DNA of 64,000 nucleotides. Origin: Polyangium aurulentum (GTDB lineage Bacteria > Myxococcota_A > Polyangia > Polyangiales > Polyangiaceae). Under the pieces are notes generated by a model. That model was given only the letters and a program-made list of their open reading frames with translations. It was not told the DNA's origin and ran no database searches. Position 1 is the first letter of the stretch; each line of letters begins with the position of its first letter. Position numbers and translations under genes: made by a program. Of this stretch, positions 28,197-31,584 are shown in pieces. Location of the stretch: the NCBI GenBank assembly GCA_945875545.1, contig CAMCKZ010000005.1:1-64000 (forward strand), written 5' to 3'.

Positions 28197-29993
28197 CTAA
28201 CGGTCGTTCAGTTGCACGTGAGCGGCGCGCCCTTCGATACCCGTGGTGCCCTCGGTCGTTTTCACAAACTCGCCGGAACCAACGACCAGGCGCCGCCGCT
28301 CATCGCGAGGGCCCGCAAGAAGCAATTCATAGGCCTCGTCGCACGCCAACGACGCCATCGTGGCCGCCGGGGAAACGCCGCTGAAGAAAAAGATTTCGGC
28401 ACCTGGCGGCGAGGTTACAACGTGAACCACGCCAGGATTTCCAGCGCCGCCAACCTGCGGGCCCGGCTCCGCGGAAGGCCACGGGTCCATGCCACTCGGA
28501 GGCTTTGCGTCGAGTTGAATGGCGAGTTCGTAGCGGGCCCCCTGCCCTCCGTGATTCCACGGCGCGCCCGCGGGAATCACCGCTCGGCGGACGCGAAAAC
28601 CCTCGGCCATAGCGACCCACTCGAGGCGCGCGCCCGCAGGAAGATGCGCGACGTCGAGGGGAGATGTGCCCATGCGGCGAAAAAGCTCCGCGCCCGGGGG
28701 AATGCCCTCGACGGTTAGCGTGGCTTCGCACGGGGACTGCACGCCGCGCACGCCCGCGCGAAACGCCGAGACGACCGCATCGGACCCGGTGCCTTCGCCG
28801 CGACCCGCAACTTTTAGGCCCAGCAGAACCCCCGCGCACAGCACGACGAGCGCGCCGAAGGCTGGCCAGCGCCACCGCGTCCATCGTGTATTCTGCACGG
28901 AACTCACGACGCGCTCCGTCACGAGGCGAGCGGTCTGACGTCGCGGATCGAAAAAAATTTCCCCGGAAGGTTCACTCCCATCGATGCCGGGGAAACGCAG
29001 AGAAAGCGCACCGGAATTTGGACCCACCGGTTCCGCACCATCGCCGGCACCCACAGAATCTTGCGCGACTGCGAGGATGTTCGCGGGATGCAAAGGCGCG
29101 GGCGAATCGGCCGCGAGCCCCTCGGCGGGAGCCAGCCTTTCCCGCGTGTGCAGCGCTTCCGAGGCGAACCCCGGAGGCGCGGCAGGGGTTTCTACCAGGG
29201 CAACGGGCGCGTCGCGCGGGGCCTCAGGAACCTCGGACGTCGTGCTGGGACGCTCCGCAGGCGCGGGCTCGGGGAGCTCGCTGATGTCGATGCGCGGCGG
29301 CGGGCGCGGAGGACCCATTTCGGACACCGCGGCCACGGCCGCTGGCGGGGGCGCCAAGGGCTCGACCCGTGGAAGGTTGCCAAGTGCGTCAGGGCGCGGC
29401 GCGTCGCTTGTTGGGACCTCCAGCGCCTCTGGCGGGGCCATCGGGGCCATCGGGGCCAGCGCGCCTACTGGGTGGACCGCCGGGGGCGGCGGCGTGGACG
29501 GCCTGTGCAGTTTTTCCGGCGTGGTGAGCGCGCCATGGCGGCCGATGCCGAGCGAGACCCGTCGCGCCTCGCGCGCCAAACGCGCCACGGCCCGACGCCC
29601 GGCCCCGCGGTTTAGCGGAATCAGCGCGGCCTCGATCTCGGTCACGAAGAGATCGCGTTGCCCCTCCGCGACGCGCTCGGCGGCCGCATGAAGCGCCGGC
29701 GTACTTGACCCTCCGGCCGCAAGAAGTCGGCCGAGGATGGACCGCAAACAGGCCTCGGTTGTGGGCTCGTTTGACTCGGTGGCCTGGACGACCGCGACCA
29801 CGCCTTCTTCGCCTACGACGACGGCTGCGGGCTCCAAAGCCAGGTGCTCGTGGGCACAAGCGCCCGCCAAATCCAGCAGCAAATAACCTGCTGTTTCCGC
29901 TGCAAGAGGAACGAGCTTGGCCAGCACAGCTTCGAGCACGGCGTCCAAGTGAATGACGTTATCGAGGGCGGTCGTCATGGGTCCGGCGCTCAT
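28197..29993 (-). CDS. Membrane protein with myxobacterial N-terminal domain and PEGA-like tail
   Basis: 598 residues from ATG 29993, overlapping the hisF stop by four bases. Residues about 5-150 are a helical domain ([29 protein letters not shown]...[27 protein letters not shown]) found, to my recollection, in other myxobacterial proteins but not named. A long Pro/Ala/Glu-rich linker follows, then one membrane helix at about 372-392 and an external part with a PEGA-like strand pattern ([13 protein letters not shown]...[10 protein letters not shown]) at about 410-470. Such tails are common on kinase-associated surface proteins of this group. Function unknown. Confidence 0.7.
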
Positions 29994-30763
29994 GCCGCAA
30001 TCACGTGCCGCACCGGAAGCCCGGCCGCTTCAAGGGCGGTCTTCGCTTCACCGATGGTGAATTGCCCGTCGTGAAAAATCGATGCGGCCAGTACCGCGCT
30101 CGCGTGGCCTTCGCGAAAACCGGCGACGAGGTGTTCCAGCGTGCCGACGCCGCCGCTCGCAATCACCGGAACGGAAACGGCATCGGCGACGAGCCTCGTG
30201 AGCTCCAGATCGAAGCCTTGCCGGGTTCCGTCGCGGTCCATGCTTGTCAAGAGAATTTCGCCCGCACCGGCGCGCACCACGGTGTCGGCCCAGACCACCG
30301 CGTCGAGTCCCGTCGCGGTGCGGCCTCCCGCGATAAAAACCTCGAAACCCGAGCCATCGGGGCGACGCTTGGCATCGATCGCGACGACAATCGCCTGGGA
30401 ACCCCACCGATCGGCGCACCGCGTAACGACCGCAAGATTTTTCACCGCGGCACTGTTGATGCTTACTTTATCGGCACCGGCGCGCAGCAGCGCCTCCACG
30501 TCCGAAACCGCGCCGACCCCTCCGCCGACGGTGAGTGGGCACGAGGTTTCGTCGGCTGCGCGCGCGACCACATTGAGCATCGATCGGCGGCCTTCGACGG
30601 TGGCGGTGATGTCGAGAAAAACAATCTCGTCGGCCCCTTGCGCGTCGTAACGGCCCGAGGCTTCGATGGGGCAGCCCGCATCGCGAAGCCCGAGAAAGTT
30701 CACACCTTTGACAATGCGACCGTCTTTCACGTCGAGGCAGACGATTACACGGCTCGCGAGCAT
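29990..30763 (-). CDS. hisF: Imidazole glycerol phosphate synthase, cyclase subunit
   Basis: 257 residues, canonical TIM barrel. [18 protein letters not shown] carries the first catalytic Asp, [12 protein letters not shown] and INSAAVKN the phosphate sites, [13 protein letters not shown] the second catalytic Asp, and [11 protein letters not shown] the second phosphate loop. With HisH it makes imidazole glycerol phosphate and AICAR in histidine biosynthesis. No other his gene is nearby; the neighbours are a PEGA-type protein (coupled) and the Fic-like gene. Confidence 0.97.
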
Positions 30764-30777
30764 GCGCCGCGCCCCGC

Positions 30778-31584
30778 CTAGCTCGATTTCTCGAGCATGT
30801 TGTTCACGTTCACCAGGTAATCGTGAATAGACGTTGTAATGAGGGTAACAAGCTGAGGCAAAGACCCCTTCAAGCTATCGTAATACGCATTGCGATCCCG
30901 CGCATGCAAGATGGCCGGGGCAAGACCGGCGCGCACGAGCATGATGTTCATGAACAGGCGAGCGACCGTTCCGCTGTTGGACGCGAATGGGAAAATTCGC
31001 ACGAGATCGTAGTGGACGCGGGCCGCAATCTTGATCGGATTTTTGAGCTTTGCGGCGTCTTCGGACCGGAGCCACAAGAACACGTTCTCGATACGATGCT
31101 GCACGCGATCCGGCGGGCAATACTCGTGGAGATAGAGCCGGTGCTGCGGAATATCTTTGCGGTACTTGATCGACGAGATGTCGCCATCTTCGGGATGGAA
31201 GTACATGTAGATTTGCCGAAAAAGGTTGAAATCGGTGGGCACGCTCGCGTCGAGCATCATGGCCCGTGCGAAATCGAGGGCCTTCTTGTGCTTGGCAATT
31301 GCCTCGCAAAGTGGCTGCAGGCTCGTGTCGGCCGTGGCCATGCCCGCGCCCCCGTTGTCGAGCGCCAAATGGAGCTCGGGCAATTCGTACACGCCCCCTT
31401 CAAGACCCGCATCGTTGCGAATCCACGCCATTTCGAGGCGCTCGCGGTAACGCTTGCGGACCAAACGGTTGGCGCGCCAAAAGCGCTCCTCCACCTGAGA
31501 CGTGCGCTCGACCAGCACAAGGTCGGGGCGATCATCAAACAGCGGATACGGATCTCGAGCGACGACTCGCACGACCATGGGCAA
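30778..31584 (-). CDS. Fic-fold protein with degenerate active site
   Basis: 268 residues. An N-terminal helix with NDAGLEGG (57-64) matches the inhibitory (S/T)xxxE(G/N) type of Fic proteins, and the helical core and C-terminal [11 protein letters not shown] match the Fic fold. The catalytic loop at about 197-210 reads [14 protein letters not shown] where the family has I-H-P-F-x-D/E-G-N-G-R-xx-R. The catalytic His is Phe, and the GNGR phosphate anchor is lost. AMP transfer is therefore unlikely by the usual mechanism. Codons at about 30815-30890 are AT-rich. It lies 14 bases upstream of hisF on the same strand. Confidence 0.72.

Follow-up and report, generated by a model that had tools for sequence, protein, structure and literature searches.

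The gene at positions 30778..31584 on the minus strand of the window, the 64,000-nucleotide stretch of Polyangium aurulentum DNA analyzed here, encodes a non-canonical Fic-fold protein, designated Fic*, from a large clade that is as old as the classes of its phylum, Myxococcota. In this clade, an aromatic residue stands in place of the catalytic histidine of Fic enzymes, while the inhibitory lock hardly varies. A single histidine motif is the usual ground for reading a Fic protein as AMPylating, and the Fic* family separates what the Glu-Arg lock does structurally from what it does to restrain catalysis. Judged from sequence conservation, there is an even chance that Fic* is a permanently locked, non-AMPylating Fic protein that binds a conserved partner or ligand.

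Translation of Fic* could begin at a TTG codon (31584; 268 amino acids) or two codons on at ATG 31578 (266 amino acids), which is conserved in two loci of the same genus (L003 and L004). The protein passes the curated Pfam cut-off for Fic (PF02661; 44.2 bits versus a cut-off of 24, E 3.6e-11) and is the sole Fic match in its 3.5 Mb genome. Among solved structures, the chains most similar in sequence come from human FICD (E 8.6e-14). A Foldseek search with an AlphaFold model (mean pLDDT 87.7 from an input alignment of 44 sequences) yields 39 matches at E ≤ 0.001 with FICD on top (E 1.2e-8), and VIA-align superimposes the model on FICD with a Z of 25.6 and an rmsd of 3.0 over 244 residues (model residues 14-268). 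This match covers the N-terminal region bearing the inhibitory-type helix, and the model has a helix at residues 40-61. The Pfam score and the fold match together exclude chance similarity, and Fic* belongs to the Fic fold, as the original prediction had proposed. The flap region (residues 141-160) is modeled with lower confidence (block means of 71 and 76) and without any predicted strand; the model thus does not show the customary flap hairpin. The top named records matching Fic* are from two lake metagenome bins (L032 and L033), followed by Polyangiaceae (Sorangium, Polyangium, Labilithrix and Minicystis).

In the active-site loop (residues 197-210; 30955..30996, minus strand), the FICD segment DGNGRTSR aligns to SNSGTVAR. 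Position by position, F198 corresponds to H363, S202 to D367, N203 to G368, S204 to N369, G205 to G370, T206 to R371 and R209 to R374, where FICD residue numbers are those of the aligned chain plus 102. The histidine, the metal-binding acid, the adjoining Gly and Asn, and the first arginine are gone, and the proline, phenylalanine, second glycine and last arginine are kept. Compared with the AMP transferase motif HxFx[D/E]GNGRxxR, Fic* thus lacks the catalytic histidine (F198) as well as the acid and GN (S202, N203 and S204), and neither the window protein nor the family rows match the Doc kinase motif HPFx[D/E]GNKR. The earlier claim that the catalytic histidine and GNGR had been lost is borne out, and with the histidine, acid and asparagine all replaced, the non-AMPylating role that was suggested with it is probable, at least as regards canonical AMPylation.

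The inhibitory-type motif NDAGLEG (residues 57-63; 31396..31416, minus strand) has indeed been retained, as originally predicted. N57-D-A-G-L-E62-G63 aligns to T-V-A-I-E234-G of FICD, with the glutamate present in 137 of 139 family rows (Asp in the other 2) and the glycine in all 139. The Ser or Thr of the class II motif [S/T]xxxE[G/N], which is T230 in FICD, corresponds to D58 in the window and is Asp in 133 of 139 rows. Other residues were placed around the pocket by sequence alignment to FICD. The R231-x-x-Y234-Y235 segment with K239 (residues 231-241; 30864..30894, minus strand) includes R231 and Y234, which occur in all rows and align to FICD R396 and Y399. The flap-position segment (residues 140-155; 31120..31167, minus strand) carries R142, P146, H148, R149, Y151 and H153, which are nearly invariant in the class to which the window belongs. 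FICD (HYPE), a class II Fic protein, is the best match to Fic* in both fold and sequence, with equivalents of E234-G, R374, R396, Y399 and Y400 kept. Fic* differs from it in having no counterparts of H363, D367, N369 and R371, no TPR part and no predicted flap beta-hairpin.

The variant loop is not peculiar to the window. A family match is present in 89 of 97 near relatives and, as a single gene, in 64 of the 68 good genomes among them. A profile built from 32 members finds matches in 155 of 377 Myxococcota genomes at E up to 1e-10, an upper figure because canonical Fic genes such as L201 appear among the weak rows (E above about 1e-25), and the family reaches several other classes of the phylum. 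These counts refer to Myxococcota; the scan of genome contigs used patterns from the window protein alone. The family alignment comprises 140 rows, from which identical ones alone were removed, such that close relatives are counted many times. The 138 rows with letters at the motif have Phe (85), Tyr (47), Trp (4), Ser (1) or His (1) at the histidine position, making it aromatic in 136; gaps at the motif in L062 and L080 are an alignment effect, with separate reading giving F in both. The last arginine (R209) is found in 138 of 138 rows and the second glycine in 136 of 138, and the acid position is Glu in 8 of 140 rows, with Asn in 1.

The homolog comparison that the original prediction had called for thus shows the variant loop to be a conserved trait of the family. 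The loop as first read stands for a family motif, [F/Y]PFxx[D/H]SGK in its own order, but its exact letters are a genus-level variant (N203 and T206). The motif differs by lineage. The family of the window has RVFPFxxDSGKVARL, and the order's other families have QIYPFPKHSGKVARL. Within the class the forms are IYPWTKNSGKVARL and IFPWPxISGRVARL, family f38 has VYPFRRNPGTTARL, f28 has VFPFDERTGVVGRL and f56 has WPFDDRAGTAGRL. The single row with histidine, L102 (genome G077; HPFARHSGKLAR), still lacks GNGR and is nested within a tyrosine clade of the tree, and its histidine is therefore best read as a secondary change.

As a control, other Fic genes of the Myxococcota loci and three plasmid relatives were compared, and HPxxxGNGR is kept in 32 of 36 hits, although three genes enter the count twice and the use of His-motif genes to seed the profile favors the recovery of their kind. 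Among plasmid records, 29 matched Fic*, the best at 29 percent identity, and the three inspected all keep the histidine. One further locus (L118, genome G029) contains a 925-amino-acid open reading frame with two Fic-like motifs, LPFNDGNGR and RPFDGGNER, neither of which has the motif histidine.

A tree of 123 rows separates 96 Fic* family rows from 27 canonical Fic rows with support of 99/97. When the 12 motif residues are masked, 68 family rows still split from the 27 canonical rows (SH-aLRT 97). The Fic* family is thus firmly one clade against these 27 canonical sequences, several of which have long branches, and it was probably fixed early within Myxococcota. A horizontal or phage origin was also considered and rejected, as none of 27 pattern matches in viral contigs encodes a relative.

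What a Fic protein altered in this manner might do can be approached through characterized enzymes. In the account of Fic catalysis given in PMC6408439, the histidine acts as the base and the acid as a metal ligand. For EfFic, the same source describes deAMPylation as needing the histidine, the motif acid and the glutamate, with loss of the histidine or the acid abolishing the reaction, and reports a salt bridge between the inhibitory glutamate and the last motif arginine; the role of this arginine is taken from section 6 of PMC4454073. Because catalysis needs the histidine and the acid, both of which nearly all members have lost, and because the glutamate and last arginine are kept, we infer a locked Fic fold. 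Lacking both a general base and a ligand for the metal, Fic* would be unable to transfer or remove AMP by the known mechanism. E62 and R209 would stay bridged and fill the place of the ATP gamma-phosphate, such that Fic* would be held permanently in the form that is the inhibited one in ordinary Fic enzymes. Nucleotide sensing, which the original prediction raised as a possibility, is conjectural, and the kept pair should, if anything, disfavor triphosphate binding. The pocket beneath the invariant flap (R142, H148, R149, Y151 and H153) might then bind a conserved partner peptide or a small anionic ligand, since side chains conserved to this degree point to a dedicated binding function and not to a leftover of an old enzyme. 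Under the same reading, Fic* would serve some housekeeping process as a subunit that binds or regulates. In a number of lineages it is probably tied to GTP cyclohydrolase II (RibA), and this link suggests a housekeeping enzyme as the partner there.

Weighing against a locked protein are the side chains of the invariant His, Arg, Tyr and Lys residues, which look excessive for a mere scaffold and would equally fit an active site that had been rebuilt. Such a site is the main rival, as AvrB shows that a protein without the motif can still be an enzyme. Under such a scheme, the flap residues H148, R149, Y151 and H153, together with E62, R209 and the Ser-Gly-Lys loop, would support some other transfer or hydrolase chemistry, a possibility that we regard as rather unlikely but deserving of serious consideration. 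The polar flap side chains are invariant in the class of the window (R-x-x-x-P-x-HR-x-Y-x-H; H148, R149 and Y151 in 119 of 119 rows with letters, H153 in 118 of 119), position 206 holds a basic residue, either K or R, in 109 of 119 rows of this class, and the HR-x-Y portion extends to families f38 and f49, in which H153 is replaced by Gln. However, the flap HR is missing in families f28 (where Y151 is kept), f36, f47 and f56 despite the aromatic substitution in all four, and the lysine at position 206 is threonine in the window genus. Moreover, E62 and R209, both retained, would together obstruct the phosphate site.

Other altered Fic-like proteins offer partial parallels. AvrB, an altered member of the Fido superfamily (PMC2686095, PMC10866546), resembles Fic* in having a Fic-like fold without the Fic motif, but it is described in PMC10866546 as an effector with rhamnosyltransferase activity. 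It is not among the fold matches listed for Fic*, which carries little weight against an AvrB-like fold. BepC of Bartonella likewise has an altered but conserved motif and, as PMC7842960 presents it, a Fic domain that acts without catalysis. Unlike Fic*, BepC keeps the histidine and GNGR (HxFxKGNGRxxR) and is a secreted effector, whereas Fic* is chromosomal, mostly single copy and phylum-wide. In Doc clade D2 of Khater and Mohanty (2015; PMC4454073), the catalytic histidine is replaced in all members. The replacement there is glutamine in a single-domain Doc protein that keeps NKR, whereas in Fic* it is aromatic, GN is lost and the inhibitory glutamate is kept. PMC8401265 describes Bep variants with further changed Fic motifs, and Campylobacter Fic2, whose motif is also changed, still needs its histidine according to PMC5651007.

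The association with RibA emerges from distant members of the family. PF00925 was used to locate ribA (GTP cyclohydrolase II) in 78 genomes that have a Fic* place and belong to other orders and classes, and the two genes adjoin on the same strand in 35; G119 and G125 were dropped from the 80 genomes searched because they have no full Fic* place. The pairing occurs in four GTDB families (10 of 11 genomes in f16, 15 of 18 in f28, 5 of 5 in f36 and 5 of 5 in f56, with ribA upstream in G298) and in none of the other 13 of the 17 families scored. Its restriction to 4 of 17 families and its absence from the family of the window argue against the RibA part of the proposal. In the three f16 loci inspected, 2 to 18 bases separate the Fic* stop and the ribA start, and the gap is larger in the other families. 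This short spacing makes a single Fic*-ribA transcript plausible for f16. The adjacent RibA proteins score above the threshold of the NCBIfam ribA model (TIGR00505) and, by eye, keep Cys-x10-Cys-x-Cys, which we take to be the RibA zinc site. Stand-alone ribA genes lie beside Fic* at L173-L175, L184, L189, L191, L192, L194-L198, L199 and L200, and each of 13 genomes with such a pair has at least one further PF00925 match elsewhere, usually longer and RibBA-like.

RibA is therefore a candidate partner for a Fic protein, and if the association is real, a dead or altered Fic would be linked to vitamin B2 synthesis. It is also conceivable, though doubtful, that this is a Fido family with a swapped catalytic center, in which the invariant flap His-Arg/Tyr/His and the locked Glu-Arg pair form a new site. 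The site would act on or with GTP cyclohydrolase II, or else on or with the products of that enzyme (guanine nucleotide or phosphoribosyl compounds). Such an arrangement would amount to Fic-based control of flavin or purine flux in myxobacteria. In the literature outside subscription journals, our search found no account of an aromatic-for-histidine clade, nor of a Fic-RibA pairing.

As regards a toxin-antitoxin module, the neighbors found at Fic* loci, in a survey that took in short open reading frames unsystematically, are housekeeping genes. Genes for ThiE (thiE), recN, nth, ilvE and rsmH occur close to Fic* in individual lineages and were judged not telling; in f38, ilvE (branched-chain aminotransferase) closely precedes Fic* in L185 and in four other loci. 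In the window, Fic* is followed by hisF, encoding an imidazole glycerol phosphate synthase subunit (29990..30763, minus strand; 14 bases downstream of the Fic* stop). The proximity to hisF noted in the original prediction is thus correct for this locus, but the arrangement is limited to part of its own family and is not the most telling one. hisF follows Fic* in 21 loci, all of this family, with a gap of mostly 4 to 23 bases, and nine loci have protein X directly in its place, so hisF is not favored as a functional partner of the Fic* family.

Protein X (28197..29993, minus strand; 598 amino acids) overlaps the end of hisF and is of membrane type, with an N-terminal domain at 29484-29969. This domain has no Pfam match, and its model (pLDDT 87.7) gives as its best Foldseek match the KIND domain of Spir (E 0.019, TM 0.59). 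The top four VIA matches are the KIND domain of Spir-1 (Z 13.2-13.5 over 132-138 residues), and the other listed rows are protein kinases. HRD and DFG are absent from the domain consensus by eye, and the domain looks like a non-catalytic kinase C-lobe on the grounds of fold and sequence. It resembles Spir-1 KIND in fold but differs in being part of a bacterial membrane protein with no Pfam sequence match. The companion would thus add a bacterial kinase-C-lobe-like protein to the same gene string. Fic* might accordingly be a structural subunit or dedicated partner of X in a complex of Fic-like and kinase-C-lobe-like proteins, which we consider improbable. X does follow Fic* in 29 loci, nine of them without hisF, and the fold match of its first domain fits such a complex. 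However, the domain has a single match in 54 of 59 relatives, yet of the 37 genomes in this set that belong to the family of the window, just 14 have X beside Fic*, and outside this family no such pair was observed.

Residual or altered AMPylation or deAMPylation without the histidine is very unlikely. E62, which supports deAMPylation in FICD and EfFic, is kept, and a His-to-Ala mutant of IbpA, as cited in PMC4454073, reportedly retains some activity. Nevertheless, the histidine, acid, asparagine and first arginine have been lost together across the phylum, and the EfFic results of PMC6408439 noted above argue against a reaction in the absence of the histidine or acid.

Finally, decay of the window gene, whether old or as a recent pseudogene among homologs with the canonical motif, can be dismissed: the window genus does sit on a long stem in the tree (0.84 changes per column) and has lost H57 and K206, but the reading frame is open, the variant loop is conserved throughout the family (138 rows), the trees place it there, and dN/dS is low. 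Between three members of the genus, dN/dS is 0.10, 0.14 and 0.18, and the window gene is, by this measure, a divergent member of the family under purifying selection.
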